Assembly: GCA_963920765.1 (NCBI GenBank)
Contig: OY987248.1
Location: forward strand, 18,944,539 to 19,008,538
DNA from: Ulota crispa
Taxonomy: Eukaryota; Streptophyta; Bryopsida; Orthotrichales; Orthotrichaceae
Direction of reading: 5' to 3'
DNA length: 64,000 bases
The first letter of the stretch is position 1; every line of letters starts with the position of its first letter. Shown here piece after piece: positions 863-61,072 of the stretch. The notes below the pieces were generated by a model. It was not told the DNA's origin and ran no database searches. It was given only the letters and a program-made list of their open reading frames with translations. Both the position numbers and the translations under genes were made by a program.

Positions 863-1971
863 CCTCTAAAGGACCATTGTCCTTACAAGGGACAAATGGG
901 ATTTTGGGCATGTACCTATAGTAAACTATTTTGTGTGATTTTTTGAAACTTTTATTGAAGATGTGGAATTCAAAAACCTACATGAGAATCTATTTTTTAT
1001 TTCAATCTGACATTTTATGAAGAAACTTTGCTAGATTGGGCAGTTCGGGCAACACCTTCCTAGTGTACTGAAGAGTTGACCACAAGTTTGGGCAACTTGC
1101 ATGGGCAGGAATTTTAGTTTCAGTGGGCAGATTTTGTACGGGCTCTATTTTAATCACTCGGCCTGACAGTATGATCCAAGTGGGAGGCGGGGTGGGTGGG
1201 AACTTTGGGTGCCGAGGGGTGGGAACTTTGGGCACACTTTTGGGAACGCTGGGAGTACGCGCATGAGAGCGCTGAGAGCATGGCCACATTTAGAAAATTT
1301 TGCAGCTGCAGACCCCTCCAGCTGAAATAGGGACCTTTGGAATATGGGAATTGTCAGAATCACAGGGAGGGGAGAATGGGCCCGTGACATGGATTCCAAA
1401 ACCCTACATTCCACTTGCCCCATGCGGAAAACTAGTGTTTCATTGTTTTTAGTGAACTATACAAGTTTTTTTTGTTTTTATTTTTTCTAGTGGTAATATA
1501 CTAATATCACTATGTTTTGACCAATGCGATTCGTGTGATTTATTTTTTTGAATTTTACACAATGCTTCTAGTTTCGTGTAGGGTATATGCAAATTTCATT
1601 ACTTTGTGGCATTGTAAGATTTTACAAAGTATGATGGACACCTTCAATTGCATTGAAAATTTGATCTTCTACATGAAAAAAATAAACCTCAACTTTGCAT
1701 AGAGCAAATTTTTTTATCAATGGTCAAAGGCTTTTTAAAATTTTGGGCAGTAAGGAAAAAAACTTATTTTTCCACTTTAGATGTCAATAACTTCCTCCTT
1801 TACATCCAAAAGGACTTGAAAAATTTCCCACAAGTACCTCTAGTAGTTTAGTGCAAGATCCTAGAGTTGGATTTTCAAGAAAATACAATTTTTATGCCTT
1901 TCTCCTCATTCCCTCAAAAGTGGCAGTTTTCAATAATTTTCACAAAAAAAAAAGGCTTGGTCCTTTAGGGG
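863..1971. mobile_element. TTAA-1: TTAA-flanked inverted-repeat element
   Basis: Flanked by TTAA at 859-862 and 1972-1975. It starts CCTCTAAAGGACCATTGTCC and ends TTGGTCCTTTAGGGG. The outer parts match TTAA-2 and TTAA-3 (for example the segment after the left end reading ACAAATGGGATTTTG). The middle, about 1033-1435, is much more GC-rich than the rest and is absent from the other copies, so it is probably an insertion or captured DNA. No transposase frame is present. Confidence 0.75.
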
Positions 1972-2330
1972 TTAATACTAGTATATAGGCACATGCTTTG
2001 CGCGAGGTGGAGATGTATGGGTAATACAACATTCAACTTTATATAGAATCAATATCTCACAAGCCAATTGGTCTAGAGTCATAGCTTGATGTACTTTGAA
2101 AATTTTAATATCTCACAATTGGTCTAGAATCTAAATTTGATGCACCATTATTTTGTTTCCTTGCTGAAACCGAATGTAGTAATCACCTTCATCACAATGC
2201 TATTCTTTAATACTTTGCTAACAGGTGCTGGGTATTTTGTTGGTTTTCTAAGGTAGGAGGCTTGAATTAGGAGCGGACACTTTGAATGGACCATGTATGG
2301 GTTACAAAAACACTACATAGAGGTTCTTAA

Positions 2331-2591
2331 CCCCTGAAGGACCATGGGGATGATCTTCGTCCCACTAGAAGAAACCCATGTTTTTAATAACGGATTTTTT
2401 TGAACATCCACTTGTTTTTATGTTATAACTAATGTTAAAACTAGCATCTTTATGTTATATTTAATGTCATTTTTAACATGAAAACAAGTGAACATCCAAA
2501 ACATCCGTTATAAAAAACACGGGTTTCTTCTAGTGTCCCTGCTGCATATACGGGGGTCGTGTATTCACGATGAAACCCTAGCTTTTAAGGG
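2331..2591. mobile_element. TTAA-6: short TTAA-flanked element
   Basis: TTAA at 2327-2330 and 2592-2595. Ends are CCCCTGAAGGACCATGG and TAGCTTTTAAGGG. Only 261 bp, of which 173 bp is a nested CACTA-type MITE. Confidence 0.65.
2363..2535. mobile_element. CACTA-type MITE nested in TTAA-6
   Basis: Begins CACTAGAAGAAACCC and ends GGGTTTCTTCTAGTG, with an exact 3-bp duplication TCC at 2360-2362 and 2536-2538. Almost the whole element is an inverted repeat (arms with AACGGAT and ATCCGTT). CACTA ends and a 3-bp duplication define the En/Spm superfamily. It is non-autonomous. Confidence 0.8.
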
Positions 2592-2948
2592 TTAAATGGG
2601 TCAGATTTTCTATGTTCATAAATTGTACTTGTGTATGCACTATTTTAGGAACTTAAGAGAGTGACATGAGCCACTATTGAGTGTACTTATTAGTCATAAT
2701 TGAGTTCAGATTTGTCTTTTACAAAATAGATATATGTAATACTAAAATAAATGAAAACTTGTTTTCAATCATGATTTGAGTATTAGGATATGGAATGGGT
2801 GCTTGCACGCTTTAAGGGCCTTATTGGAGCATTCTTGGCTTTGTAGTGGCTGCTTTTAGGACTCATGTGTTCCATTTTCAAGCCGCCTTTGCAGGCTTGA
2901 TTTACTCAAAATACGTCAATTTGGGCCCTGCCCCTGTCAGAGCTTTAA

Positions 2949-4197
2949 CCCCTAAAATTCTTTTGTGTTTAGAGGCCCAAAACCGCTTCAAAATACTAGT
3001 CCCCAAAGCAAGGTCGAAACCTTCATTGAAACTTACTTCTTAACAAACTCACCTCTAGGATCCTTTGGTTGACTTGCACAAGTACATTGTCCTAAAATTT
3101 CAGAACGAATATCCCCACCAATTGCAAGATCAATGTGTCTAAACTTCAAAAAGTAGGCTTTTCTAGTCCTTCCAAAAGGTGAAGTTTTGTTTTTCAAACT
3201 TTCTAGAGAAAAACACATATGTTGTATTTCTTGTGCAATTTTGGCAATATGTTGGAAAATGGATTGAAAGCCATTAGGAAAAATATGGGACCCCAATAAG
3301 GCCTTGAGTTTGGGGGGGGTCCTTAGCCATGGAAACCTAGTTCCCAGTAAAATCATGCACAGGTTGACGTGGCACTATTGATGCCCCGTCAACTTTTTTT
3401 GATTTTTAAAAAAATTTGTTTAAAAATCAAAAATCAAAAAAATCAAAAAAGTTTCTTATTTTTTTCTAGGACTTTTTTTGATTTTTTGGGATTTTTTTAA
3501 TTAATTTTTTTTGGCCATCTGCAAGGGCTCGTTCCCCACATTGGGAACCAAAAAAATGGAGGGCTAGAATTGTTTATAAAGGCCTTATTGACGCCCCTTA
3601 TTTTTCCTAATGATATACAAAAAAATTTAACCAAAAGAAAATGGAATCATTTTTACAAAAATTGTAAAGTCAAGGGTATTGATGAATGAAAGATATAACT
3701 AATATACTAATAAGTTTTGGAAGAATTTGAAAATTGTTAATCCCAATAGTGAGAATGCTCTAACAGACAATTAATAACTTTAATTTTCATTTTCCTTTGA
3801 AATTTTTCAAAATTGAGAGTAAAAGATGGCTTTATATGTTTTTTCTACCCTCTTCCTACCTTCATTGCGCGCAAAATAAAACTCCTTTTAACTCTTACCT
3901 CATTATTTGGAATTGAGTGATTCAATTTTTTTAGTAATAATCAATCTGTATAATTCTATAAATTAAAAATTAAAAATTTAGAATATATTTTATGTTGCCC
4001 GATTTGACATTGAAATTGAAAAAACCTTATAATTTTTGCATTACTTATCAGAATGACATGAAATAAAGCTTCACATGTAAATTATGATGAGTAGCACTTA
4101 TCCAAAAAATTTCATGAAAAATTTCCAAATTATGAAGTCAATAGAGCCTACCTGAGTTCTCATAAAGCCCAAAGTGGGCTCCTTGGTCCTTTAGGGG
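2949..4197. mobile_element. TTAA-7, inserted in the Mutator-like arm
   Basis: TTAA at 2945-2948 and 4198-4201. Ends CCCCTAAAATTC and TTGGTCCTTTAGGGG. It is homologous, in opposite orientation, to TTAA-8 (54246-55136). It is longer than TTAA-8 because it carries a 335-bp element at 3275-3609. The intact right arm of the host element shows the pre-insertion site. Confidence 0.85.
3275..3609. mobile_element. TAGGAAAAATA-ended MITE nested in TTAA-7
   Basis: Starts TAGGAAAAATATGGGACCCC and ends TTATTTTTCCTA. It is absent from the matching position of TTAA-8, which shows the empty site and implies a 2-bp AT duplication. A second copy, inverted, is at 53469-53781. T- and A-runs fill the middle. The superfamily is not assigned. 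Confidence 0.7.
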
Positions 4198-5669
4198 TTA
4201 AAAAACAGTGCTCTATGGCTGCCCCTGCCCAGGCCCTAGAGCACCCTAGAATGAAACTATCGTCTACCTTCATGGGCTCAGTTAATGTCATCCATGCGCG
4301 GGATTAATATCGCAAAACTTTTCAAGTTACTTGATATTGGTGTTGAGTTATATTGTATTGCAAACTTACAGTGATTATAGCTGCTAAAAAAAGCAATGAA
4401 AACATTACTTTGCACAAGTGAAAATGTTTTGTGCTAATTATTGCTTTTTTGGTATCCCAAAATTGGTGTGGCCAATTGTTCTATAGTGTTTTTTGAAAAA
4501 ACATAAAATAGTTAGCCAACTTTTGTACACAAGTTTGGAAATAGGAGCCCGGATTTCAGGGTTCCACTTGATGTCGCCTCATCCTACTAGTGCAATATTC
4601 CAATTTCCCACAAATGTATCATGAGACTTAACTTTGATGAAAGCTTGAAAGCATCCAACTTTACATTTGTAAAAAAAAGTAGCTATACTTGCTACTCAAC
4701 TATTTTCTGGTTAGAAAAAATGCTAAGGCCACTTCATCCAAAATATTTTCAATGCTTTGCACCTACATTCAAATGCAATAAGAATCTTCACAAAAAACAT
4801 TCTTTGTATAGTGATCTTAAAGGAAGTGTAAGTTCCAAATTACTAGGGATTTGATTTGCAAACTATAGATTAGGTCACAATCTTTGTCATTTTTTGTATA
4901 TTCAACCATGGTTTTCTTTTAGTGTCAAGACCTTTATGTTTTTTGCAAATCAAATCCCTAGTAATTTGGAACTTACACTTCCTTTAAGATCACTATACAA
5001 AGAATGTTTTTTGTGAAGATTCTTATTGCATTTGAATGTAGGTGCAAAGCATTGAAAATATTTTGGATGAAGTGGCCTTAGCATTTTTTCTAACCAGAAA
5101 ATAGTTGAGTAGCAAGTATAGCTACTTTTTTTTACAAATGTAAAGTTGGATGCTTTCAAGCTTTCATCAAAGTTAAGTCTCATGATACTTTTGTGGGAAA
5201 TTGGAATATTGCACTAGTAGGATGAGGCGACATCAAGTGGAACCCTGAAATCCGGGCTCCTATTTCCAAACTTGTGTACAAAAGTTGGCTAACTATTTTA
5301 TGTTTTTTCAAAAAACACTATAGAACAATTGGCCACACCAATTTTGGGATACCAAAAAAGCAATAATTAGCACAAAACATTTTCACTTGTGCAAAGTAAT
5401 GTTTTCATTGCTTTTTTTAGCAGCTATAATCACTGTAAGTTTGCAATACAATATAACTCAACACCAATATCAAGTAACTTGAAAAGTTTTGCAATATTAA
5501 TCCCGCGCATGGATGACATTAACTGAGCCCATGAAGGTAGACAATGGTTTCATTCTAGGGCGCTCTGGGACCTAGGCAGGGGCTGCTATAGAGCACTGTT
5601 ATTTAAAGCTCTAATAGGGGCGGGGCCCAAATCGACGTATGTGCAATAAACCAAGCCGCCTTTGCATCA

Positions 5670-8976: not shown

Positions 8977-8980
8977 TTAA

Positions 8981-9909
8981 CCCCTAAAGGCCCAAGCCCT
9001 TTTTTCTGTGAAAGTCACTCAAAACTACCACTTTTGGGGGAATGAGTAGAAAGGTAGGAAAACATGTTTTTTTGGGAAATTCAATTGTAGGATCTTGCCT
9101 TAGACTATGGCGGGTACTTGTGGAAAAAAATCAGCTCATTCTAAATGTAAATGAGAGATATTCACATTTGAAGTTAGAAAAAAAGTTTTTTCCCGGCTGC
9201 CCAAAAAATTCAGAAGCCTTCAACCTCTCCTATATCAAAAAATTTGCTTTACGCAAAGTTGAAGTTTATTTTTCCCATGTAGAAGACCAAGTTAGGTAAG
9301 TGTGGGAGAATTTTCAAATGAATTGGAGGTGTGATACATACTTTGTAAAATCTTGCAATGCCGGAAGGCCATGAAATTTGCATATAAACTAGGCAAACTT
9401 GGAGGATTTATGTAAAATTGAGAAATCTGAATTACTTTGATCCAAATGGCGAAAACCAAGGAATCTTAGTCTACTACAACTTGGAAAAAAAAAAACTTAA
9501 AAAGAACTCAAGGACCAAATTTTACAAGGGGCAAAAGGAATGGAGGTTTGGGAATTCCATACCTACCCAAAAACCAAAACTTCTCACTCATAAATTAGAA
9601 TTGAATGATTAAAAGCTTCCCACATTTGTAAAAATCTAAAGAATAAATTTCAGATTTTTAATTTTGAAAAATGAAAAATTTTAAGAAGTTTTTTGGGCTA
9701 CCTGGATTGCCTTCGCTCCCCAATTGTTTAAAAATTCATGCATAACTTCTTCAAAAAATGTCAAATTGAAGAAAAAATTAGATGTGCACATACATCTTTG
9801 AATTCCCCACAATCCTCAAAAGTTTCAAAATAATTATAAAAACTGGTTTAGTCACAAGAACATGCCCAAGGTCCATTTGTCCCCGAGGGGACACTTGGGC
9901 CTTTAGGGG
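8981..9909. mobile_element. TTAA-2: TTAA-flanked inverted-repeat element
   Basis: TTAA at 8977-8980 and 9910-9913. Ends CCCCTAAAGGCCCAAG and CTTGGGCCTTTAGGGG. The right part reads, in reverse, like the left part of TTAA-1 and TTAA-3. No transposase frame. Confidence 0.85.
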
Positions 9910-9913
9910 TTAA

Positions 9914-14151: not shown

Positions 14152-17100
14152 ATGTCTGATGTGTTGGATCTGACCGGTGATGGCGGTGTCACCAAGGTTA
14201 TCCTCCGGAAGGCCAAGCCTGGAGCGCTTCACCCGTCCGAGAATCTGCCCAACGTCGATGTCCAATACGAGGGCAAACTCGCTGACACAGGTATTCCCTA
14301 AAATCTACACCTTTGGTACATACCCTCAGTCAAACTCACGCTTTCTGTCTCCTCATCAACATTCCAACCCATAAGGTAGGATGCTCATGAATGGATCATC
14401 TAAGGGCTGAAACTGAATTTTGGGAGGTGAAACTTCTTGAAATATTTTTCAGTGAATTTTCCTTCAAAAGACAAGAGGAATTGGCATCTGACCCAAGTTG
14501 TATCATATTTTTTGGAGCTTTGTGGAATTAGTTATGAAATTTTGAAGTTGAAATGTCATAGGGCTCTAAAATGGATCACCTCCTCAAATGCTCCTCAATT
14601 GTACATTATCTGTATATTGCTGAAGCCTATGAAAGACAGCATGTATAACAATAGTACATTTGAGAAGGTGATCCATTTTAGAGCCTGAGCCGAATTAGAG
14701 CCTCCTACCTTACTCATCCTGCAGTCTCACTGCGTCCTTCAAACCGATATGAATATTCTTACAACTGCCTTTCATACGTCATATGCATTGACGGACTAGG
14801 TAAAAGAGAAAACATTGCATTGAGGTAGGAGGCTCATAAACCGACATTGCATTGAGGTAGGAGGCTCATAAACCGACCATCTAAGGGCTGAAACTGAATC
14901 TTTGGGGAAGGTGAAAATTCCTTGAAATGTTTTTCAGTAAATTTTCCTTGAAAGACAAGAAGAATTGGCATTAACTTAAAGGGTTTCATATTTTTTGGAG
15001 CTTTGTGGAATTAGTTACGAAATTTTGAAGTTGAAGTGGCAGAGGGCCCTAAAGCCGCCCACCTCCTCAAATGTACACTGCTTGTACATTGTTGAAGATT
15101 GTGAAAAACATGTACAAACATTGTACATTTGAGAAGGTGGGCGATATAGAGCCTGAGCGCTTTTAGGACCTCCTACCGTAGTATGAGAAACAACAGGTAC
15201 CATTGCTAGCCTTGGGAGTAGGGAGGGATGTCAGTTCCATACAAGGCTCTATTTTCAAATCGCCAGACATATCCTATTGAAGTTATAGAATTTACCGTTA
15301 CAACACGAATGTTGATCAATGTAGAAACGTACTTTTTATTTGGAGTGTATACCTGGAACAGGGCAATGTCCAGATACACTCCATATATGAAGTACGTTTC
15401 CACATTGATCAACATTCGTGTTTTACCCTCAATGGTTTAATCCTGTTGTTTGCTGCACTTTCACGTTACTGAGCAGTTGGGGCATTCCTTCAAAGGTTGA
15501 ATCTTGGTCAATGAAAAGGATACGATAACTCTGCAGGACAACATTGTGAGAGACAGCCATGCTTTATTGCTCTCCATATTCAATGCTGGATTTCCACTTT
15601 TACAAAAATCGGCAGAAATGGGCTCCACTGAGGTTATGCGAATGGGAGATACCCCTGAAGTTTGCATCATTTTCATAGATACCCCTGCTTTTTCAGAAAG
15701 ATCACAAATACCCTTGGACAGACCAAAAAATTTAGGCGTTTGTTTTGTTGTGCATGCCACTTCCCTTCTTCCTTTGTGCACACGCATAACATGAAAGAAG
15801 TAGTGTGCCCACAAAGGGAGGGAGAAGCAATTAACATGCATAACAAAACATACGCCTAAATGTTTTTGGTCCAAGCAAGGGTATTTGTGATATTTTTGGG
15901 CATCTATGAAAATATGGCAAACTTCAGGGGTATCCATGAAATTTTCCCTATGCAAATCACAAGTTAGATAACGTAGGAACACCCACAAGTGTGAAACTAA
16001 GGATTTTGGAGTAGGAGAAGCAGTTGATGAACTTTGAAAAAAATAGCGTTAAATAAGGAAGAGGAAATTAAAAATATTGGCCTCGATTTGAAAGTTCCAA
16101 TTGCAAGCATTTGTTCACAGATTTTTCAAAGTCCAAATTCACAGAAAATGTATAGTTGTGTGTAGGAAATGCTAAAGAAGACACTTAGTGAAGTCTTTCG
16201 TGTGTGGCTCATATGCTCATAATACTAACTTGAGGAGTTCTTAAATAGTGAGATGGGGCACTCAAAATTGTCATGCTAGTCACCCAAAACCAATACTTTG
16301 TCACCCATAACCAATTTTTTTTTAATTGTCAGTCACCAACATCGTTGACACAAGTAGGTAGGTATCGGGGATGGAGACACTCACGGAGAGGGGTATTCCT
16401 ACCTTATGGCAAGGGATGGCTTGTTTGTGTGCATGTGAAGATTTTTGTGTGTTTGTGAAGAGTTTTGTGTGTTTGCTATGAAATTTTCCCTATTCGAATT
16501 ACAAGTTAGGTATGTAAGAGATGGATTGTTTGTGTGCATGTAAAGATTTTTGTGTGTTTGTTATGAAATTTTCTCTATGCGACTGACAAGTTAGGTATGG
16601 CAAGGGATGGCTTTTTGTTTGTGTGGATTTGTGAAGATTTTTGTGCGTGTTTGTTATGAAATTTTCCCTATGCGAATGACAAGTTACGTATGCCAAGGGA
16701 TGGTTTGTTTGTTTGTGTGGATTTGTGAAGATATTTGCATGTGTGTATTAATTTTCGTGGTGCTTGATTTTTGTGTGTGTGTGTTTTTTTTTATTGTTGT
16801 TGCAGGAGAGGTGTTCGACTCAACAAAAGAGGACAACACGGTTTTCAGCTTCGAGGTAGGGAAAGGCAGTGTGATCAGAGCCTGGGACATTGCAATCAAG
16901 ACCATGCAAGTGGGTGAAGTGGCAACGGTGACGTGTCAGCCAGACTACGCGTATGGCCAGGCGGGGGCGCCACCGGAGATCCCCGCGGGAGCCACGCTGG
17001 TGTTCGAGATCGAGCTGCTGGGAGCGCGGCCCCCGCGGGGGTCCACGCTGGACAGCGTGGCCGCCGAGAAAGCCAAGCTGGAGGAGGTGCGCAAGGAGCG

Positions 17101-19101: not shown

Positions 19102-19282
19102 TAGGACCTCCAACCTCTAGCTTTGCAAAAGTTGAATAACATTCCTAGACCTTTTGGACCCTAGAACGGAGCTTGCTTTCAAAAATGTTGTCTCATTGGG
19201 ATTTCAAAGTTTTTTCTTTTCTTTGGTGTGGTCAACCTGGATGGGCCTCCAGTTTTGGTGGCCTATGGAAACCGGCCCTTAA

Positions 19283-19927
19283 CCCCTAAATGCCCAAGGC
19301 CTTTTTGAACTTCTTGGCATTTTTAGGAAAGTGAACAATCAACCAACCTTTTCATAAATCTCATCAAGTTTTTTTAGACTGTAACCGTATGAATTTAAAT
19401 TTGACATGTTAGAGATTAAATGGAAAAAGAAAACACAACAGTATCACTTATAGTTTGAAAGATTATAACGTTTGAACATGAGGGTGTTAAAACTGCAAAA
19501 GTGACTTGAAGTTTTTTAATCCTCATTTCACATGTCAAACCTAAAAGGTTGGTCATCAAAAACAATGAGGTTTAAGGTCATTACATGTTTAACTTTAGTC
19601 AATTTACAACTTCCAAATTCTACTCATGTACTTTTTTTTAAATGGATTGCTAATGCGGATTTTTCTCCAAGCTTTAGTGTATTTGAGGCTCATTTTCAAG
19701 ATCTTCCAACATTAGAAAACTCAAAATTGCAGTGGACACCCTTGTACAAAATCTTGAGTAGAAAAATCATCAATATTCATTTTTTAAATCAGATTTTTGA
19801 TATTGAAAATAGACTTCAAAACAAACTTGTGTTGAAAAGTAAATACCACAAATAGTGATTTGATAAGGTTTTATATGTCTACAAAGTTTTGCAAACACCC
19901 AAATTGGGTGCCTTGCGCATTTAGGGG
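19283..19927. mobile_element. TTAA-9: TTAA-flanked element, subfamily B
   Basis: TTAA at 19279-19282 and 19928-19931. Ends CCCCTAAATGCCCAAGGC and CGCATTTAGGGG. 645 bp, the same length as TTAA-10, with a shared interior (GCTCATTTTCAAGATCTTCC and relatives). Confidence 0.85.
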
Positions 19928-19931
19928 TTAA

Positions 19932-22107: not shown

Positions 22108-25100
22108 TCACCTAAATTTGAGGATTTGAAGGACGTCAGCTTTGTGTATTGCAAGCTCTTGCCAAAGCCTCTCTTCCAGGCCCTTTGGACCCAAACGCTT
22201 CACCGTGCTTGTAGTTAGATCGTCAAATATTGCTGGAGAGCCACCTGAACTGCTTTCTCTTGATTCATTGCTGCATTCAAACAATATCCCTGCAAATTTA
22301 CAAAATAATACTGTCATTGACTCCCGTTGACTTCCAAGCAAATTCTCTGTGACAGCATAAAATCAAAAAGTACATTTAAAAATCGGAATAGAAACTATAG
22401 CCAAAGCATTTGCATCAGAGTAAATACGCAACGCAAGGAATTAATATCCTCCAAAGCGCCTCTAATTCTTGGTTACGAATCAAGCAAAATGTTGATAGTT
22501 TAAGTGTTGGAAAATGGTGGAAGGACTCAGGAATAATGACTTAATGGTAACTCCTAAATGCTTTAAATAGGTTTCTCAACTCACTAGAATCAAATTAGTC
22601 ACACAATGACAATTCTATTCAACCCACAAAATTGAGAATTCTACACCAAAAATTTGTCAATTCATTAAGCCGAGATCTCTAACAAAATTCTGTTGTTCGT
22701 CTATTGAAATTATTCAATCACGAAACCGAATGAAGCCAAATGAGACACAGCCTTTCAACAAGGTTGGACTGTTCATAAACTCAAGAGGTTTTGTTCAATT
22801 ACAATGGATTATTATTCAAAGTGTTCAAGTCTCATCTTTTCTACATATAATCCCAGTCAACAAGATACGGTTTTTTTATTCTAAAAGTTGAAAAGTAGCC
22901 ACGCTTGATTTACAGTAAAGTGATTCTTAAATGTCCATGTTTGAGACTTGAAACCCAATTTTACAGAGTATCTAAATAGAATACATTAAAATAAAAGTTT
23001 CTCCCAAATTGAAAGTTAGGTGGGAGGATGTTAACATAACGAAATCACACATTAGGTTATACAGTCTAAAAAACATAAAGTAAAAGGGAGAACAATAATC
23101 ATAAAGGTAATAAAAATCTAAAAAAATAGTCCAAAATTTCAGAAAATGAAAATGAAGTACCTTTTCTTTCTTCCAAGGAGTGTTTCCAAACTAAAACAAT
23201 ATTTTGTACCAAAGTTGCAACATACGTAGTTTGTGGGCAATCAAATCTACTACGGTGTATGTCTTTCTTACCACATAAAGATCTAATCCTAGCCATTTAA
23301 AATCAAAGAATCCAAATATAAATCTTAATTTGAACATGCTGATATCCTGTTTTTCAAGCACTAACAAAAATTTGATATTCAGGTCAAACAACAAAACGTT
23401 GAAAATGACCCTCACGAAATGAGAGAAATGCATGAGAATTTTACCTGAAGTCCTGAAAGGGCTAGACATGGCAGGAGTGGGTGGAACATCGTCAATTTCA
23501 GTTGGAACTGTCTCTCCCGGGTTGCAAGTTCTAGGAGGCGAGACACCGAACACGGGAGTTTGCAGGAAAAACAAGCCATCGCCTCCTTTGGAAACATGCG
23601 CCGGAGGAGTCTCAAACACCAAGCGACTCTGACAGATTGAAAAATCTGGAGTCACAGGACCTCCAGATTTCGGTGTCTGCGGTCCATCACCATCTCCACC
23701 ATCTCCAGAAACAAGAGGTGATGGACTCTCGCTGATTGTAGACAGGACTCTGGTTGAACGAGGTGGTGAGAGCAAGCAAGGAGTTGGAGGCAGTGGACTG
23801 AAAGATGTGCTTGTGTGTGTGCCAGGGGTCCCGTCTCCTGGAGGAGTGAATCCGAGGGATTCACTATCACAGCCACTCTCAGAATCTATCACATCAGTGG
23901 CAACCAGTGGAGAATAGCTGATGGCACCAAACCCTAAATCAGGGATACATGGACTGACACTGCTACCCTTGTCTCCACGAGGCGGTGTTGCTTCAAGACT
24001 TCCTGTGGTGGACGGCTCTTCATCAAAGCTGCCAAGTAACGAAGTCGATTGCTCAGCAGCTGCTCTGAGGAAGGTATTTAGTTCCTGAAATAGAATATTC
24101 CACACTTCAAATCACCACTAGGGAACTGTTGAGCGGTTACATACAAAACACATTCTATTAACGTCGAAAGGACCAAGGATTTTTATGATCTAAAAAATGC
24201 AAAAAAATGCGTTTACCTGTTGTGAAAATAATATAATTGAGATGAGGCTCACTATCATATCACCAGAATCATGTGACCTACTCCCTCTGTCCCTCTGAAA
24301 ATGTCCAAAAAGCTTCCTTGCAAAGAATTCACTGTATTTTTAGTCTTTGTGCTAGTGACACATGCATTCTAGAATCAATGTACCACCTACCAAATGTCTG
24401 CAAAATCTCCAGTTTTATGCTGCCATTTAGGCACCCAAATTCCATGCAAGAAGTATCATAGTTGTGCATAGTTTGTGAATGTTGCCAACTCCTCATTATT
24501 TCAATCTTTGTGTTGGTGAAGCATGCATTCTAGAATGAATATACCATCTACCAAATGTATGCAAAATCTCCAGCTTTGATGTTGCTGTTTGGGCACCCAA
24601 AGCACTATATTTGTGCATGTTGTCAGCTCCCCATTATTGATGACTTAAAGATTAGTAGCAACAATGGTTCCTCATATGAGCAAGGCCGAGCTTGGTAGGA
24701 GAGGAATGCTCCCTAATCTCTTAACTCGCCCCCATGAGATCATTGAACATGACAAACGCTTTCTCAGCATTTGAAATCAGGAAAAGGGAGCTTTTAAGTG
24801 GTACAAGAAATGTGTCTGATTTGGACATTTTTAGAGGAACAGAGGGAGTACTAAATATTGGTTGAAAGGCATGAACAACGTAAAAGCGCATTGATTGCAG
24901 CTCTTACACTGAGATGATTTAGAGAGAGATGCTGACCTGGAGGTTAGCATCCATGTTGGCCAAAGCATCAGTAAAAACCTGAACCTCGGCATCAGCGACA
25001 TGATTCGATGATGCAAGCTTGTGAATGTTTAACACCGTTGCGTCGATCTACATACAACAGATGTACAATATCAGAAACAAATGACTAGAGCTAGGATTAC

Positions 25101-27771: not shown

Positions 27772-27774
27772 TAA

Positions 27775-34492: not shown

Positions 34493-34953
34493 TTAATGTA
34501 AATAAAAAATCAGATTTCAAGAGCAGTTTAGGTGATTCAGTACCAAGGTTTTTTCAGCATCATGGGATTTTTTTTGTAGGCAAAAAATATTCATTGACAT
34601 TTTTTTGAAAATTTCTAAATAACCATTGGCATTACTTAATTATTGCATGGAATTGGATTAGACAATACCTCAAATAATTTTAAAGTGATGGTATCAATTT
34701 TCAATTTAAATAAGAATTTTATGAAAGCCTAGGCTACAACACAATTTTCATTATTGCAATTTGGCATTTTTTGAAAAAAATCCCCCCTTTTCTTTCTATA
34801 GGCTTGAAGCTCACCCTTTATTTTGAGGCAATTGGGCCTTAAATTGCCCAAAAAGAAAACACTGTTCAATACCTTATCTCTTGCGACCACCAACGCTAGA
34901 AGTTGCATTTCACCAACTTATGTGAATCAATATCAAAATGCAAGTTAACCCTA

Positions 34954-36670: not shown

Positions 36671-37382
36671 GTGATCAAACACATTGTATATATTTGTGGA
36701 GGTCAGCTTCTCTATTTGTTTTGAATTTGCTTTTAGCTTAGTTCTTCTTATTTAAATGTGCTTTCATGTAAAAAAAAATTGGTTCACGGACAATGGTATT
36801 TGATCTGATTCCTTTTGTGTAAATTTTGGTATAGTTCTTATTAATTTGTGATAAATTGGAATGTAGCAAATGTCTAGCTAGAGATTTAATTTTAAATTAG
36901 CCCATTCTCCATCTTATCGCTAGGAATCAAACAATAGGAGTTCAGATGAAATTTCACGTGGGGCTTTTGCTCGTTGAGTCAATTTTTCTGTGGAAGTGCT
37001 TCTTTATCAGCCTTGTATGTAGTCAATGTTCCATAATCAAAGGCCTTATTCACTTTGTGAAGGCGGAGGTACCCTATATGTCAATCCTTGCATTGTCCGA
37101 TACAATTGCTAAATATGAAGTCAATAAAGAGCTTGTTTGAGGTAGTTATAACTATATTCTCTTTCTCATGTGTTTTCTGAATATTGCACAGCCAACCATG
37201 CTCACGCTTGCGACTGCTACTTTGGGTGAGACGACTGTTGTGGTCAACCTTGCGTGTAGTGTGCAGAATCTCCTGGTGACTTCATCAGCTCACAGTCTTC
37301 TAGCTACTTAAACCTTGTTGGAAGCAGATGACTTGAATATCACAAATAGGGTATGTTTGCGTATTAGTTTGGACGCCATTAA

Positions 37383-37625
37383 CCCCTGAGCGCCCCCACA
37401 GCCCCAAATATCGCTTTTCACAATTGAAAAAGTTCTATGTTTGATTGTTATAATCTTTTCATCAATATAGACAAATCATGTGTCCTTTTTTCCTGTACTT
37501 CTGTGTCTATGTCCCCTACCAATCAATACAGCTAGATTTTATGGATTTCATTTGTCACAACAAATTAGTTGGATTGAGTGTGACTAGGTCTGCATTTTGG
37601 TGAATATGGCATGGGCGCTCAGGGG
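37383..37625. mobile_element. TTAA-12: short TTAA-flanked element
   Basis: TTAA at 37379-37382 and 37626-37629. Ends CCCCTGAGCGCCCCC and ATGGGCGCTCAGGGG, a 13-bp perfect terminal repeat. 243 bp. Confidence 0.85.
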
Positions 37626-39115
37626 TTAACAAGGCTTGGTACTACATCAAAGCCAACTACTTAGGCTTTGTGTATAACCCAAAGAAGCTATAACATACAT
37701 CATTTGCCATTTGTGTTGGTAGCGTTAGCATAGACTTTGCAATAATTCAAGAGTCTGTCTATTGATACATGTATTCAATCTCGAAAAGGTCTGGACTACA
37801 AACACAAGATTGTTTCTCTAGGAACAACATCTACTAGTATGTATTTAAGTAAAATCTCTATTTGTATGTAGCATTCTCGTAAGGATATTGAAATAAGTTA
37901 TTATTGTATTCATTGGATCAGTCACATGTATGTATATAGCTTTTTGGTCCTTTCCATTATTGGCTTCATTCACTCATGAGCATATTGGTAACTCCAAGAT
38001 AAAGTTAATTTTGTGACAGTTTTTTATTTCCTCGGAGGAGTCCCCAATGAGATTGAGCCTGAATAAAGTAGAAATTGAGCCCAAATGAAGTAGCTATTTA
38101 TACTTTAGAGAGAGATTGGAGTGCACAGCTTGAGTTTGGCAAGGATGACGAGGAAGAAATAAAGGTTCATAATGACATCAATGTAAAGGAGTCAAACTTT
38201 TTAGAGAATAAGCTCAGCCAATTTGAAGAAATGGATTCCGTTGCAACTATTGTGCCTTTGCAAAGGAAGTTGGACCATCTTTTTTGGCTTTGGATTCCAC
38301 TTTGTAGGCTTGTTCTTATGCCCACAGTGAATACCACCTTATTTTGTGATCCGGTGAATTTGAAGTAGAAACTTGTCCATGGATATCGTAAAAGTTCAAC
38401 AATATTTCACATTTCAACCACAAATGAGGCGGGGGCAAAATAGTAAAGTTCATTGTGTGGGAAATGGCAAGTTGAGGCTCACTATGGTCTAGTAAGAATG
38501 ATAGCTTCCTTTAGTTTATTGAAGGCAATCCACGGCTTGCATTCTTGAAGAATTTGAAGTTCTTTGTATGCAATGGGAACCACAAGAGATTGGCTTTAAT
38601 TAACCACATTTCAAAATTTCATCTTTTAAATTGGTTCTAACATTCTTCAATCAATGTCATTGTTTGAGACTGAGGGGTGCATCAAAATTGTTATGCAAGT
38701 AATGCATGACATCAATAAGTAAGTACCTATTATATTACTTGCTATTTTAGACGCTGAGTAGATATAATATTTTTATTTATTCCACATTCTATTAGAGTTT
38801 TGAGTATTTTTGTTTGAATTTTTCCTAAATATGTTTGATTTGTTCAAACATACATTTTCAATTGATGGCAAGGATGGACAACTAAGATGATTGAAGACAC
38901 TTGGATTAGCCTAGATAAAACTTTTGCTCTACTGTTATATGCAAAGCAAATGATTTTTGCATATGAAAATTATGGATCTTCTAAAGCAAAAACTTGTTGT
39001 GGCTCTTATGTTTTGAACATCCTTGAGTTCATAAATGATATGACTTATGATGGAGAAAAATCTTCAGCAACACCTAGTATTAATGACTCCTCCAATAAGT
39101 CCAATATAACTTAGA

Positions 39116-46589: not shown

Positions 46590-47020
46590 TTCCAAGATCA
46601 TCACTTCCATGCTTGGAAAGCTTATGATGGTTTTACATTACAAGTCAAGGCCATGAAATCTTGGAGCCATTCCAACCAACACTCAAGTCCAAATGGTTTC
46701 ACTAACGGCCCCAAGCGCCCATTATAATATGAGTATGATGGTGGCTAACCCTCTTGTGTGTAAAGGCTTTGAGGTTAAAAAGTGGAGGCCATGAGAGCAA
46801 TTTCTAAAAATTTGAAGAAAAAAGGGTTTAAAAAAAAAGAAATCAAGGAGAGAGAGCTGTTAATATTTTTACTCCATCCTACAATATTGAGTATCTCAAA
46901 AGAATGCTTTTTTTTCAAATAATCATATTTGAATATTAAAAAATGTAATGGCCCTAGGGTCAAGAATTGGCTTCACATTTTTGGAAGACCCAATTTTTAA
47001 GGCTTGGCCCATGTCAAAAC
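46590..47020 (+). repeat. Dispersed repeat R3, copy 1
   Basis: Shares ordered blocks with 59051-59395 and 63084-63520: CTTGTGTGTAAA, TTTTTACTCCATCCTA, GAGTATCTCAA, and a final GCCCATGTCAAAAC-type end. TTAA-10 follows directly. Confidence 0.65.
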
Positions 47021-47031
47021 CGGTCTCTTAG

Positions 47032-47676
47032 CTCCTAAATGCCCAAGGCACTTTTGAGCTTTTAGGAATTTGTTCTAAGTTGAACAAAAAGCCAACATTT
47101 TGATAAGTTGCATTAGTTTTTTTTAAAATCGTAGTCATACAAAATCAAACTACATATGTTAAAGATCACATAGGAAAAGCAAATACAACAATATCATTTA
47201 TGAATTGAAAGGTTATAATGTTTGATCAGGAGGATGTTAAAATTGTGAGAATAAATTGAAGTCTTTCAATCCTCTTTTCACATATCTAATCTAAAAAATA
47301 GTCACATGAAAAATACGGGGTTAAAAGACATAAAATATGTAACTCCAATTAATTTACAGCTTTTCAAAATCTCCTCTACAATTTTTTTTAAACAAATTTA
47401 TAGTGTAAATCTTTCTCCAAGGTCTAGTGTATTTGAGGCTCATTTCCAAGAGCTCTCAACACTACAAAAGTCAAGATTGCAATGGACACCCTTGCACAAA
47501 ATGTTGAATAGAAAAATTGTAATCAATCATTTACAAAACCAAATTTTTGATGCTAAAACTAGACTGCATAATATCAATTAAAATTTTAATCTACTAAAAA
47601 TTGCAACCTAGTTGGGTTTTCATAGAAGTTCAAAGTATTATCAACACTGTAATGTGGTGCCTTAGGCATTTAGGGG
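47032..47676. mobile_element. TTAA-10: TTAA-flanked element, subfamily B
   Basis: Right flank TTAA (47677-47680), left flank TTAG (47028-47031, one change). Ends CTCCTAAATGCCCAAGGCA and TTAGGCATTTAGGGG. 645 bp, same as TTAA-9. Confidence 0.8.
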
Positions 47677-47680
47677 TTAA

Positions 47681-50455: not shown

Positions 50456-50459
50456 TTAA

Positions 50460-51079
50460 CCCCTAAATGCCCAAGCAATCAGATTTGGGTTTCAACAAAA
50501 CTTTGAAGATGAATAAAACCTTATCAAATCACTTTTTTCAGTATTTCTTTTTCAATATAAGTTTATCTGAAGTCTATTTTCAACATTAAAAATCTGATTT
50601 TGACAATGAAAGTTGATGATTTTCAACTCAAGATTTTGTACAAGGGTATCCATTGCAATCTTGAGTTTTCTAGTGTTGGAAGATTTTGAAAATGAGCCTC
50701 AAATATACTAAAGTTTGGAGAAAATATCACATTAGAAATCCGTTTAAAAAATATATAGGAGTAGATTTTGAAAACCGTAAATTGATTAAAATTAAACATG
50801 TAATGACCTTAAACCTCATATTTTTTTGGTAACCAACTTTTTAGATTTGGCATGTGAATGAGGATTAAAAAACTTCAAGTCACTTTTGCAGTTTTAACAC
50901 CCTCACGTTCAAACATTATAATTTTTTAAACTATAAGTGATGTTGTTGTGTTTTCTTTTCCCATGTAATCTCTAACATGTTCAGTTTAAATTTGCACACA
51001 AAATTTATGAAAAGATTGATTGATTTTTCTGTTTCATGGAAATTCCAAGACGCTCAGATGGAGCTTGGGCATTTAGGGG
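50460..51079. mobile_element. TTAA-11: TTAA-flanked element, subfamily B
   Basis: TTAA at 50456-50459 and 51080-51083. Ends CCCCTAAATGCCCAAGC and GCTTGGGCATTTAGGGG. Reverse orientation relative to TTAA-9, with matching interior blocks. Confidence 0.85.
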
Positions 51080-51367
51080 TTAAACTGTCAGAAAGGTTTG
51101 AGGATTTCATCCATATTTTGGCAGAAGGGTTTGAGAATTTCATTCAAATATTCTCCATTTTCTTTAGTGTTACGGTAGCCAGTGTCATATTGAAGTAAGA
51201 TTTATACAATTTTTTTACCAAAAAATAATTCTGCTTGTGAAGCATGACTATCAGGATTACTTCAGGAGACTAAAGGTAATCTAGAGAAAGCTTGTCCCCA
51301 TCCTATGTCTATCATTTAAAATTAGAAACTGTTCCATGGCCATCTTTGGCCATCGGCCATGTTAGGA

Positions 51368-53030: not shown

Positions 53031-53468
53031 TTAATATATAGGGGACACCCCATGAGCAAAGATGAGTAGGGTAAAAAAATCCCTCCTTTGGGGGCTTTCA
53101 TAAGGCAACAAAAGAAACCAAAAACAACAAGATAATTTGCACTAATGCGAGTTGAACCCAGAGTTCATAGATGATATTGTATTTAGTAAGATAGAAGTAA
53201 CTTATACCCACTTTTTACATCCAATTCTTGGATTACGCACTCCATTTTATACAATCTAAAACAAGTAAATGAGTTCAACTAAAACCTGAAAAAACTACTC
53301 TAATCAAATTAATATTTTAACCTAGTTTTCAAGTCTCAATTTCTTAGATGTCACCTTCTTAGAATTTGCCATCATACAGGCATTTCAAATGAATTTGGAC
53401 TTGGGACTTAGTAGGAAACCCTCTTGCTTCAAGACTTTTGTCAAAAAGAAAAAAAAAAAAGGTTGCAT

Positions 53469-53781
53469 TAGGAAAAATATGGGATCCATAAGGCCTTTAT
53501 AAATGAACTTGGCCCTTCATGTGTTTTGTTCCCGATGTGGGGAACCAACCCCTGCAAAAGGTCAAAAAAATTTAATTAAAAAAATCCAAAAAATCCATTT
53601 AAAAAAAAAAGCCTTAGAAAAAATAAGAAACTTTTTTGATTTTTTTAAAATTAAAAAACTTTGAAAAAGCTAAGGTGGCATCAATGATGCCACCTTAGCT
53701 TGTGTATGATTTTATTAGGAACTGGGTTCCCATGGCTAGGGACCCCCAAACTCATGACCTTATTGGGAACCCATATTTTTA
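53469..53781. mobile_element. TAGGAAAAATA-ended MITE, copy 2
   Basis: Reverse-oriented relative of 3275-3609 with ends TAGGAAAAATATGGGATCC and CCCATATTTTTA. It carries an inner perfect palindrome near 53672-53702 (GCTAAGGTGGCATC mirrored by GATGCCACCTTAGC). Confidence 0.65.
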
Positions 53782-54245
53782 ATATAAGTTATATTTCTTC
53801 CAGAACACAAGATAATCTTCTTGGCCTAAATAATATCAAAGGTGTTTTTGGAATGCGTTTGTAGAACATCAATACATATGAGATCAAAGAGTGGCATGCA
53901 TAAAATTCCATTTCCAGAGAGTTATAGACATGACAATTTATTTTGTCAAACTTCAATTTTGATCTTTGGTAAATTAGGCCACTCTTGAAATTATGGAGTT
54001 CCAATGTGAATAAGTTTCCTCATAAAATTTCATGTAAGAATATATGCAATGTAGTCTAAAAATTTCTATAAAAGTTGTAATCTTTTCACGAAGACTATAT
54101 TGGAGAAAACACAAATGCATGAATTGAAATAGATAATTGTTCTATCGAAGTGGTTTGCATTTGATTTGTATGTTGATTAGTATTGTGACACATAAGTTAT
54201 GAGAGGAGGTCTAACTTGTGAATTCTCTTCCCACCTCCGTTTTAA

Positions 54246-55136
54246 CCCCTAAAGGACCACGAAGCCCACTTTGGGCTTTATGAGAACTTGGGTAGGCTCT
54301 ACTGATTTCATAATTTGGAAATTTTTCATGAATTTTTTAAGATGAATGTTACCCATCATAATTTACATGTGAAGCTTTATTTCATGTCATTTCAATGAGT
54401 AATGCAAAAATTAGAAGGTTTTTTCAATTTTGATGTCAAATCGGGCAGCAAAAATTATATTCTAAATTTTTATTTATTTGATTATAGAATTATATAGATT
54501 GATACCTACTCAAAAAAATCACTCGGTTCTAAATAATGAGGTAAGAGTTAAATGGATTTTATTTTGCGTGCAATGAAGGCAGGAAGAGTGTAGAAAAAAC
54601 ATATAAGTTATCTTTTACTCTCAATTTTGAAAATCTTCTAATGAAAATGAAAATGAAAGTTACTAATTGTCTGTTAGAGCATTCTCACCATTGGGATTAA
54701 CAATTTTCAAATTCTTCCAAAACTCATTAGCATATTAGTTCTATATGTCATTCATCAATACCTTTCACTTTACAACTAAAAATGAATCCAAAATTTTTTT
54801 GGTTAAGTTTTTTTATACATGCTTTCAACCCATTTTCCAACATATTGCCAAAATTGCACAAGAAATACAACATACGGATTTTTCTCTAAAAACTTTGAAA
54901 AACAAAACTTCACCTTCTGGAAAGACTAGAAGAGCTTATATTTTGAAATTTAGGCACATTGATCTTGCAAGTGGTGGGGATATTCATTCTAAAATTTTGG
55001 GACAATGTACTTGTGCAAGGCAACCAAAAGATCCTAAAATTGGATTTGTTATAAAGTAACTTTCAATAAAAATTTTGAACTTGCTTTTGGGATTAATATT
55101 TTGAAGCAGTTTTGGACCTCTAAAAAATTTTAGGGG
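54246..55136. mobile_element. TTAA-8: TTAA-flanked inverted-repeat element
   Basis: TTAA at 54242-54245 and 55137-55140. Ends CCCCTAAAGGACCACG and AAAATTTTAGGGG. Reverse-oriented relative of TTAA-7 over its whole length, but without the inserted MITE. Confidence 0.85.
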
Positions 55137-55299
55137 TTAACTGCCGTTAAGCTTATTGCAGCCAGTCATTCATTGTAGCGTACTTTTCCAAAAACCTTGT
55201 GCAATCATGTATTCATGTGCCGGAATGATAGAATAAAATACTTCTCCCACACTTTCCTAGTCCTACAACTCTCACCACTGCAAGAATCAATGTCCAGAA

Positions 55300-57126: not shown

Positions 57127-58269
57127 TAAAAATAAACTAGTTTTGTCTAAACCATAAATCATAAGAATTTCAAGTATTTAGAGAGTTGCATGCACTTTGA
57201 AGTGGCCAAGCAATGAGCCAGAAAGTAACTTTAGGTTAAGGCAACCTAGTTGTTAAGGTAACCTAAATTCACTATTTAGTGTAAAAGATTGAGGGTTGCT
57301 TTACACTAGGAGCAAGGCCATGAATACTTGGGGTCATTTTAACCCCTAAAGGCCAAAGGGTATTTTGGAAGAAAAGATGTCCAAAAGTGCCACTTTTTGA
57401 TGACTTTTTCAAAATCCAAAATCAAAACTTTTTTAATATAGTCCAAGTGTAATGGATAAATAAGAAAATGTGTGAAAAACATTTCAGCCCATTTGACCAT
57501 GTGCATCAAAAGATTATAACATCCATAATTCCAATAAAAGTTTTTTTTGGCCTTGCCCAAAAAGGGCCAATAGACTTTGAGCCCCCTTAGTTGAAATTTC
57601 TTGTTCTACTTATACTCAAGAAATTGGGCCAGTCATAAGTATATGATGTTAGGTTCAATCATGCAAAATTCCCCATGCAACCAAGATGTATAACTTATCT
57701 AAATGAGCTTGCACTACAAGGTGGTCAAAGAAAACAACTATATATTTGCCAATATGTAGATTTTTTTTGTGTATTCAAATTTTATTTTATTACAAATCCA
57801 AATGGTGAAATGATGTAACCCCTATCTTCAATAAGTATGATTTTCTTTTAAAAGTTACTAAAGATTTCAAAGTTATGCTAATTCAAGTTTTGCAACTATC
57901 CATAATCTCCAAATCTCTTTTATAAGTAGAGCAAGATATAAAGGAAGACTGACTTCCTAAAAGCCATCTTGTTCAATAAAGAAAAAGACCTTGTATTAGT
58001 CCCATGCTTCCACCATAAACTACCAAATTAATTTAATTCAGTGATCTAGACAAATTGCTAGTTGCTAAAAAATCATATTACAAATTTCCCTCTCAAGTTC
58101 TTCCCTCCCAAAATTCCCTCTTAAGACTCTTTCTAAGCTTCCCTCTCAAGACCCCGTCTTGAATCTCCCTTCTTGAAACACCTTTTCTTCAAATTGTCAA
58201 GACCTACACTCTCAAGACTCCTCCAACCAAAACATTTTTCAATAGATAGTACTCCTACCTCCACCTCCA

Positions 58270-58690
58270 ATTCACCCAAAAATAAAAAAAATAAAAAAAT
58301 AAAAAAATAAAAAATATAAAAATATAAAAATATAAAAATATAAAAATATAAAAATATAAAAATATAAAAATATAAAAATATAAAAATATAAAAATATAAA
58401 AATATAAAAATATAAAAATATAAAAATATAAAAATATAAAAATATAAAAATATAAAAATATAAAAATATAAAAATATAAAAATATAAAAATATAAAAATA
58501 TAAAAATATAAAAATATAAAAATATAAAAATATAAAAATATAAAAATATAAAAATATAAAAATATAAAAATATAAAAATATAAAAATATAAAAATATAAA
58601 AAAATAAAAATAAAAAATAAAAAATAAAAAAATAAAAATAAAAAATAAAAAATAAAATAATAAAATAATAAAAAATAATAAAAAATAAAA
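58270..58690. repeat. TATAAAAA microsatellite
   Basis: About 36 copies of an 8-bp TATAAAAA unit (about 58311-58603), bordered by looser A-run plus T repeats. The long minus-strand open frames of Phe, Ile, Tyr and Leu are by-products of this repeat. Confidence 0.95.
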
Positions 58691-58717
58691 ACACACTATG
58701 CCAAGTCTCTTGTCAAG

Positions 58718-58772
58718 ATCCTTGCCAAAACCCTTACCAAAACCCTTGCCAAAACCCTTGCCAAGACCCTCA
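58718..58772. repeat. 12-bp tandem repeat CCTTGCCAAAAC
   Basis: Roughly four copies with small changes, just after the AT microsatellite. Confidence 0.7.
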
Positions 58773-59050
58773 CCTAAATCCCACCAAGACTACTATTGAA
58801 GCTAATTTTGCGCTGACTTCTTTCTTCACTATTCTCTATTTGCACTATGCTGCCCAAGCAATCTACACTATTTCAAGAATCATGACTTTTTACTTGGTCA
58901 TCCAATCAAAGGTTTTTTTTTCACACAAAGAAATTCATTGTATGCACATTATCTCCAAATTTTAGAAACATCCATCTAAAATTGACTTCATAGGAACCTA
59001 CCCAAAATTTCTATTTCCTATTCAAGGGACAATTGTCCTTCAAGGGTTAA

Positions 59051-59424: not shown

Positions 59425-59654
59425 GCTAACACCATGTTTGTTATAATGAGAGAATGGGGACCTCTCAAAATAAACATGTTGATCTTGACCAAAATCACCA
59501 ATTTTCATTAAAATGAAAGTTTTCAGCTCAAATCAAGCTAAATTGACATAACTCTTTAGATTTGACCTATTTGTTTTTGAAATTTGGGTAAATTACCTCT
59601 CGTTTACCTCTCATTTCATTGAAAAACTCTCATTATAACAAATATGGTGTTAGC
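59425..59654. mobile_element. Foldback MITE with AACACCATG ends
   Basis: GCTAACACCATGTTTGTTAT is mirrored by ATAACAAATATGGTGTTAGC; an AGCT duplication beside AACACC is possible. The interior is related to 31039-31310. Confidence 0.7.
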
Positions 59655-60343
59655 TGTGACTTCTAACGTAAGGGCCTTGAAGATATGTTTAGAAAATTAA
59701 ATAATGAAATGCAACATTTGAAGTGTTACACGCATAGTGGCAAGCTTGATCTGGCTGTGTTATAAAATAAATATCCATTAAAGTACTCTTATGTAGACAA
59801 GGAAGAACAAAGGTCATCTTCTAAATGAAGTGTGAGTTTGGAAATGGTTCAACTATTTATATGCCTTATGAACTTAGAATGGCAAATTCTATCTTTGATG
59901 CCTCTATTAAGAGGTAGAACCTATAAACTACTAACATGTTCTTTCCCCTGAGAAATTTTAAAGTTCCCATTTGATAACAAGATCATTTGACCTCCCATCT
60001 TTATAAGACCCTTGCTAAGGTCCAAGTTTTAACTCACGACCACCTCATTGGTGTGTCAAGACCAAAGGCACTAAACCATAGCCAAAAGTGCCCACTTTTA
60101 TGTAGACATCCAATCTATTGAAATAAGTGGCTTTGTGGTATTGTTTCATCTCAGTATTGCAAAAAAATAAGTAAGATTTAGCATAAAATTGATTTGATGA
60201 TAGTAGTAGGGACCAAAAGATTGTGGAATTCTTGTAAGGAAGTAAATACTCAAAAGCATGGAAGGAAATTTTTATCTTCTATTTTTGTTTGGATCATGAG
60301 AAAGTATGCCCTGAAACTCTTTGCATGTCTAGAAAAGCTCACG

Positions 60344-60631
60344 CACTACAAGAAAAAAGGTCATTTTTTACTAAGGATTTTGACTATCAAAACACTAAGA
60401 CGATTGCACTTTTGTGACTAGTATTTATGACCACTCGTAGTCATAAATAATTTAATTTATGACTACGTGTAGTCATAAAATTAATTTTTATGACTAAATG
60501 AAATTATTCAATCATAAATTAAATTATTTATGACTACATGTGGTCATAAATACTAGTCTTGAAAGTGCAGTCGTCTTAGTCTTTTTTGTAATCAAAATCC
60601 TTAGTCAAATATGACCATTTTTCTTGTAGTG
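60344..60631. mobile_element. CACTA-type MITE
   Basis: Starts CACTACAAGAAAAAAGGTCA and ends TGACCATTTTTCTTGTAGTG, the common plant CACTA end. Flanking triplets ACG and AGG differ at one base. The middle is palindromic, with repeated TTTATGACTAC and GTAGTCATAAA motifs acting as subterminal repeats. Confidence 0.85.
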
Positions 60632-60814
60632 AGGACTTTTGATAATGGTAGATGCATGCAAAATTGGTACAAAACTGTGTCTCTAAACATATGCCTAGAT
60701 TTAAAATCCAAATCAACAATAAAATATTAGAAAAAACGGAGTTTTGGATGGCATCTTGGTTTATAGATAAAATAAAAGATAAGTATATTATTTAGTGCAT
60801 TTTGTATGTCTTAA

Positions 60815-61072
60815 CCCCTAAAGGATGTTGTTGTTTTGTATACGGACTCCCAAGTTGTATACGGACTCTCAAGTTGTATACGGATGGGGTATTTGGATAG
60901 CACATGAACCCCATTGGAGTTGTAATTTTTAACCCAAGTCATAGACATACTACTTGTCAACTAGGATTTTTTGGGGAATTTTTAACATTTGTCATATAGT
61001 AATTTCTTTAAGTACTAAATGGTTCTTGTACAAATACAAACAATACTTTGGGTAGGCAACATCCTTTAGGGG
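60815..61072. mobile_element. TTAA-14: short TTAA-flanked element
   Basis: TTAA at 60811-60814 and 61073-61076. Ends CCCCTAAAGGATGTTG and CAACATCCTTTAGGGG, a perfect 16-bp terminal repeat. Contains three tandem TTGTATACGGACTC units at about 60835-60885. Confidence 0.88.

Follow-up and report, generated by a model that had tools for sequence, protein, structure and literature searches.

The window analysed here is a 64,000-nucleotide stretch of the genome of the moss Ulota crispa (contig C7, positions 18,944,539-19,008,538; assembly of 274.8 Mb in 157 contigs), in which 14 paired elements with inverted ends and TTAA flanks together occupy 11,419 bp (17.8%) of the sequence. These are very probably miniature, non-autonomous piggyBac transposons residing in the genome of a land plant. 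The initial annotation, made from the letters of the window, had described about fifteen such elements occupying about a fifth of it; both the elements and their share were borne out, coverage reaching 19.5% once further matches to an element library are added, whereas the count was revised to 14, of which 13 have an exact TTAA on both sides. The elements are as follows, with no strand assigned to any of them and with L numbers designating fetched genomic loci:

859-1975: TTAA element of the 0.9-kb class but longer (1,117 bp); recognized by its ends and by homology to 8977-9913 and L004
2327-2595: TTAA element, 269 bp, with a nested CACTA-like element at ~2363-2535; recognized by its ends and an unfilled-site relative in L024 (83%)
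2945-4201: TTAA element of the 0.9-kb class, a relative of L005, 1,257 bp, split by a 341-bp insertion; recognized by its ends and an unfilled-site relative at 5503-5657
8977-9913: TTAA element of the 0.9-kb class, 937 bp; 20-bp perfect inverted ends, multi-copy
19279-19931: TTAA element of the 0.65-kb class, 653 bp, end CCCCTAAATGCCCAAG; multi-copy
27771-28691: TTAA element of the 0.9-kb class, 921 bp, with a decayed left end (TTAATT); 90% identical to L007 across its full length
29846-30768: TTAA element of the 0.9-kb class, 923 bp, left end with one additional C; an unfilled paralogue of its site, with near-TTAA only, lies at 28688-29060
33564-34496: TTAA element of the 0.9-kb class, 933 bp, left end TTAAAC; recognized by ends and homology
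37379-37629: TTAA element of the 0.25-kb class, 251 bp, end CCCCTGAGCGCCC; multi-copy, right end matching that of a piggyBac copy over 18 of 18 bp
47028-47680: TTAA element of the 0.65-kb class, 653 bp, with a decayed left flank (TTAG); recognized by its ends
50456-51083: TTAA element of the 0.63-kb class, 628 bp; 82% identical to 19279-19931, 21-bp perfect inverted ends
54242-55140: TTAA element of the 0.9-kb class, 899 bp; 86% identical to L005
57339-59050: TTAA element, 1,712 bp, containing ~56-bp units repeated in tandem; recognized by its ends and near-TTAA unfilled-site relatives at 63409-63514 and 46632-46764
60811-61076: TTAA element of the 0.25-kb class, 266 bp; 20-bp perfect inverted ends, multi-copy

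Structure, target duplication and copy number

With the TTAA counted on both sides, the three size classes originally described were recovered at 899-937 bp (n = 5), 628-653 bp (n = 3) and 251-269 bp (n = 3), together with three longer elements of 1,117, 1,257 and 1,712 bp. TTAACC is found at both sides in 11 of the 14 elements, the deviating left ends being TTAATT at 27771, TTAAAC at 33564 and TTAG at 47028, the last of which is also the exception to an exact TTAA. Ends composed of TTAA and a 10-bp core with up to two mismatches occur 11 times in the left and 13 times in the right form, against a random expectation, for both forms together, of 0.25 on average and 1 at most (20 first-order Markov sequences).

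The 14 window elements were combined with 17 from elsewhere in the genome into a library of 31. In 30 of these, no stop-to-stop frame exceeds 113 aa; the remaining one has a frame of 218 aa, which is a tandem repeat. Within the 57339-59050 element, the array at 58278-58691 can be read as an open frame of FLYFYIFI repeats, up to 218 aa long, which is not a gene. The elements are short and non-coding, have inverted ends and a high copy number, and recur as copies of the same length, the properties that define miniature inverted-repeat transposable elements (MITEs). As was stated at the outset, the window itself lacks a transposase: none was recognized when its open reading frames were read by eye, and none of the 120 listed matches to PF13843, the piggyBac DDE family, falls inside it.

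Individual elements are multi-copy in the genome, with identities that come from the best-scoring copies and do not describe the whole family. The 937-bp element (8977-9913) has at least 43 matches on C1-C11, with identities of 88-92% among the long ones (9,347 first-look candidates, 40 scored). For the 653-bp element (19279-19931), all 40 scored matches, self included, reach at least 91%, and 35 of them span positions 1-653, the other five being nearly full-length (best 40 of 4,192 first-look candidates). At least 41 matches were found for the 251-bp element (37379-37629; 40 scored of 617 first-look candidates) and at least 44 for the 266-bp element (60811-61076; 40 scored of 1,265).

TTAA is its own reverse complement, and its presence at both ends could mean that it belongs to the inverted repeat. 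The two flanks of 28 elements were therefore joined around a single TTAA and searched against the window and the fetched loci, leaving out the three of the 31 elements in which one flank is not TTAA. For 7 of the 28, this gave unfilled-site relatives whose alignments run across the junction gap-free; for the other 21 there were none in the window and fetched loci. An exact single TTAA is present in the relatives of four elements, namely 2945-4201 (window 5503-5657, 88%, no gaps), 2327-2595 (L024, 83%, no gaps), L010_6170 (exact in L015 and L002, TTGA in L018) and L018_5388, and a near-TTAA only in those of three others: L002 (CCAA), 29846-30768 (ACAA, on the strand shown) and 57339-59050 (TCAA and CCAA). 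As initially proposed, TTAA is a target duplication, present once before insertion and on both sides after it. The contrary account, in which TTAA forms part of a longer inverted end and the superfamily is left unassigned, has next to no chance of being right: a self-complementary TTAA at both ends would fit it, as would the near-TTAA that is all the relatives of three of the seven elements hold, but it is contradicted by the four elements whose relatives have one exact TTAA with both flanks gap-free at the junction (e.g., 5503-5657 and L024), and inverted agreement is absent beyond TTAA (0.18-0.39 per position in 28 elements).

Genome-wide, TTAACCCCTAAAGG with up to two mismatches occurs 69,740 times (34,796 forward, 34,944 reverse) and its reversed control 3,339 times (1,638 and 1,701), giving a control-subtracted estimate of ~33,000 left and ~33,000 right ends. 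The TTAA flanks of the window elements are also the rule across the genome: the exact 15-mer CCCCTAAAGGACCAA has 5,336 occurrences, of which 4,495 (84%) lie directly after an exact TTAA, with none in the controls. Twenty stretches of 10 kb, sampled at round coordinates, have 15,788 of their 200,000 bases covered by the library (7.9%), or 14,399 without the library members' own loci, so that by the same library the density of mini-elements is higher in the window (19.5%) than in the sampled stretches. At an assumed 0.8 kb each, ~33,000 copies would correspond to an estimated ~10% of the genome.

piggyBac transposases and their ends

A PF13843 profile search of the genome returned at least 120 matches, with a best E-value of 1.3e-73 (527 first-look candidates, 116 scored), and no matches in 14 control genomes of unspecified kind. 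Three loci, L029, L030 and L031, match PF13843 in Pfam with E-values of 6e-61, 8e-60 and 3e-44, respectively, and among solved structures L030 and L031 match only piggyBac 6x67 and piggyBat 9c0f in a sequence search. No mutual DNA similarity was detected among the three at E 1e-3, and divergent piggyBac lineages therefore coexist in this genome. Nine sequences were aligned, namely Trichoplusia ni piggyBac, five retrieved relatives and one piece from each of the three moss loci. All nine share D268 and D346, while the third catalytic Asp is present in L031 and in all five relatives and is replaced by Asn in L030; the L029 piece stops before this residue, and the next open piece reads EVDLIDQ. 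The candidate partner transposases thus show the DDE_Tnp_1_7 domain with its catalytic Asp residues, L030 being the exception at the third.

The match at C4:3591922-3593028 contains no stops and lies within a 476-aa frame. This uninterrupted transposase frame, L030:1727-3154 (C4:3591727-3593154), is the one carrying Asn at the third catalytic position and, judging from its sequence, could be an inactive or host-adopted copy; its DNA matches, at 65-76% identity, are scattered across the genome. A search of 5.8 billion proteins, which reaches only relatives sharing short exact words, retrieved 16 relatives of the 476-aa protein, none from ncbi, nr or uniref sources, and 32 of the L029 piece, three of which bear an organism name, all animals.

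To relate these transposases to the mini-elements, 28 of the 116 scored copies were inspected, most on the downstream side only; downstream flanks of 25 were taken, 1.5 kb for 20 (15 of them with a further 0.7 kb) and 0.9 kb for five more. A right end of the form TTAA-CC or TTAA-TC was read by eye in 16 of the 25, ~1.45-2.2 kb from the domain, and also in L030, and a left end in four of five upstream 3-kb stretches (12, 14, 15 and 16 of 20 positions matched, TTAA included). The four transposase elements measured on both sides are 5,431, 5,288, 5,556 and 5,102 bp long and are bounded by TTAA with CCC/CCY ends. Comparison between copies confirms several boundaries: the 91% identity between the C1:30795509 and C2:24508776 flanks reaches as far as TTAACCCCTTGAGG and is lost past it, the L030 right end at 4834 is the stopping point of three other copies, and the alignments of L076 with L047 and with L051 both extend to the L076 end at 162.

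The readable ends of transposase copies follow TTAA-CCC[C/T]T.A..G.CC, which is the mini-element end with few substitutions. The commonest letters are CCC[T/C]T[T/A]A[A/G][C/T/G]G[C/A]CCA over 21 transposase-element ends and CCCCTAAAGG[A/C]CCAAG over the mini-element ends of the window. In one case the agreement is complete, the right end of the 37379 element being the same as that of the piggyBac copy C6:21758576 at 18 of 18 bp including TTAA (by eye, single copy). A script then scored every TTAA site against CCCCTAAAGGACCAAG (16 positions) with mini-element bodies masked. At 10 or more matches, 11 sites in 10 of the 25 flanks were found in the expected orientation and none in the opposite one, in 43,168 unmasked bases, compared with 8 and 12 in 182,578 bases of controls; at 9 or more, the numbers were 14 and 1, with 17 and 22 in the controls.

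The window elements combine the TTAA duplication with the CCC/CCY inverted ends of piggyBac, and the non-autonomous piggyBac assignment is supported by the existence of PF13843 elements whose TTAA-bounded ends are of the same type and are enriched in one orientation only. The initial reading, which named piggyBac and Sola3 as candidates, was thereby supported for piggyBac, and the long copies sharing the terminal inverted repeat that it proposed to look for were recovered in part: piggyBac transposase elements with the same type of end were found, but none with the exact major end on both sides. TTAA duplication by itself does not tell piggyBac, Sola3 and Kolobok apart. A Kolobok paper also mentions TTAA, and the mini-elements might belong to Sola3 or Kolobok, with the piggyBac elements as unrelated neighbours that use the same target; this is, however, quite improbable, given that piggyBac and mini-element ends agree past TTAA (mostly C1-3, T5, A7, G10 and C12 over 21 ends, positions 1-3 being partly fixed by picking), that the enrichment near transposases is confined to one orientation, and that the 251-bp 37379 element and the piggyBac right end agree over 18 of 18 bp. 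No transposase of another superfamily with the same ends was seen, piggyBac being the only end-sharing one, although no Sola3 or Kolobok search was made.

Several observations weigh against the piggyBac reading. Stop codons interrupt 110 of the 120 listed PF13843 rows (counted by eye), and an own end could not be assigned by eye in 9 of the 25 downstream flanks or in L029 and L031. One of the 11 script-scored sites (L044, +2091) lies beyond the fixed end of the L044 element and is not its own, probably being a stray mini-element end. Among the 28 inspected copies, mostly seen on one side, none has an own end that is exactly CCCCTAAAGG, the closest (L044, L076 and L040) matching the 16-position mini-element end at 13 of 16 positions; likewise, the three 5-kb transposase loci L029-L031, of which only L030 has a fixed right end, contain no CCCCTAAAGG end. 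Finally, no long homology was found between the bodies of mini-elements and transposase elements beyond nested or neighbouring mini-elements, and for this reason the mini-elements are not demonstrated to be deletion derivatives.

Apparent exact ends in these flanks were rejected as transposase ends. The exact CCCCTAAAGG cores in the flanks of L040, L051 and L076 belong to mini-elements by body homology, and the exact end near L063 is that of a nested mini-element. Mini-elements were also observed inside or abutting piggyBac transposase elements at L040/L063, L045/L065 and L051/L071, and in the L045 and L051 flanks the mini-element begins at about the TTAA that closes the transposase element.

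The missing exact end leaves room for a variant in which the mini-elements are piggyBac elements mobilised by a lineage since lost or unsampled, the surviving transposases serving other families such as CCCCTGAGCG. This variant is unlikely, yet has a real chance of being correct: none of the 28 inspected copies has the exact CCCCTAAAGG end, most transposase copies are broken, and an exact partner end was seen for the 37379 class only. On the other side, the inspection, mostly one-sided, covered 28 of 116 scored copies among 527 first-look candidates, and full-length mini-element copies exist that are 7-9% diverged from the window copy (best 40 of thousands, which gives no date for the whole family).

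Under the assignment to endogenous piggyBac, transposases from at least one lineage, as candidate drivers of the CCCCTAAAGGACC classes, would bind the short ends of the mini-elements, cut them out at TTAA and paste them into another TTAA, as piggyBac does. Lacking the gene, whether by loss or from the start, but retaining the ends, mini-elements could in this way have reached tens of thousands of copies; both the mobilisation in trans and the cut and paste at TTAA are inferred from the known biology of piggyBac. A broader proposal, which is somewhat favoured, is that several divergent endogenous piggyBac lineages drove the ~33,000 non-autonomous copies to ~8-10% of the genome, making piggyBac a dominant DNA transposon superfamily there and this the largest such expansion among land plants; one of the lineages might still be mobile.

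Other repeats and a protein-coding region

Several repeats of other kinds were also noted. The element nested at 2363-2535 within 2327-2595 is a palindromic sequence of ~173 bp (CACTAGAAGAAACC...GGTTTCTTCTAGTG) with TCC on both sides, and resembles a CACTA-type MITE. A second inverted-repeat family of ~0.34 kb, starting near ATTAGGAAAAATATGGGA, has copies at 3272-3612 and 53466-53780, the former being the insertion that interrupts the TTAA element at 2945-4201. At 24279-24850, the inverted ends TACTCCCTCTGTCC and GAACAGAGGGAGTA are spaced over 572 bp, a pair which is taken here to resemble plant Stowaway MITEs. The 279-bp element at 15652-15930, with ends CCCCTGAAGTTTGCATCA (3 mismatches in 25) and without TTAA flanks, represents a different family whose start is only superficially similar to that of the TTAA elements. 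Outside the window, a ~0.2-kb sequence occurs in several direct and inverted copies at L018:3530-6182, around the 435-bp TTAA element L018:5388-5822.

A scan of the window for long inverted repeats gave nine pairs, several of which join neighbouring elements or flanks, and Rfam and tRNA scans of the window gave no matches. The window also encodes a dCTP-pyrophosphatase-like protein that, among the best 120 of 2,524 matches, is 86% identical to a Ceratodon purpureus protein, 74-87% identical to three Sphagnum proteins and up to 92% identical to metagenome proteins; the E-value of one protein labelled Chenopodium quinoa is slightly better than that of Ceratodon, but its identity is only 67%. The similarities of this one gene point to a moss as the host.

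Relation to known piggyBac elements and significance

The piggyBac transposon is best known and most used in animals. Elements of this kind are already known, and the novelty here lies in how abundant they are in a land plant that also has several native lineages of piggyBac transposase. The moss system resembles T. ni piggyBac (PDB 6x67) in its TTAA duplication, its CCC/CCY ends and a PF13843 transposase with D268 and D346. In contrast, the window elements are non-coding and their host is a land plant, and the four measured moss transposase elements, at 5.1-5.6 kb, exceed the 2,472 bp given for T. ni piggyBac in a published abstract. The closest described small relatives found are the CMITE families of corals (PMC2872659). 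They too are small and flanked by TTAA, their ends include CCCCTCAGTGTCCG and CCCTTTAAGCCCTA, and one family is tied to a piggyBac-like transposon. The coral elements are ~100 bp long with ~1,600 copies, whereas those of the moss are 0.25-0.95 kb long with tens of thousands of ends.

Available passages of the plant literature state that plants contain piggyBac-like elements (PMC8086355) and count PiggyBac among seven MITE superfamilies of angiosperms (PMC10004981), while a review, in its accessible part, describes piggyBac use in plants as limited relative to animals. For the fern Ceratopteris, the corresponding excerpt gives 1,230 PiggyBac copies and 0.00% of the genome (PMC6890710), compared with 7.9% of the sampled moss stretches. 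The last two sources (PMC10004981, PMC6890710) are in line with the initial remark that TTAA families do not usually dominate plant genomes. A literature search, with most subscription journals outside its coverage, found no title or abstract in which piggyBac elements of a moss are described; of two text matches to 'piggybac' in the paper on the Niphotrichum genome, also a moss (PMC10619864), one is the word 'piggybacking'. It may be that such elements are hidden among the unclassified repeats of moss annotations.

If the assignment is true, the piggyBac superfamily can reach high abundance in a plant. The moss genome would then naturally supply piggyBac enzymes and ends that are adapted to plants, and would offer a case for studying the spread of a TTAA-specific transposon through a genome rich in AT.

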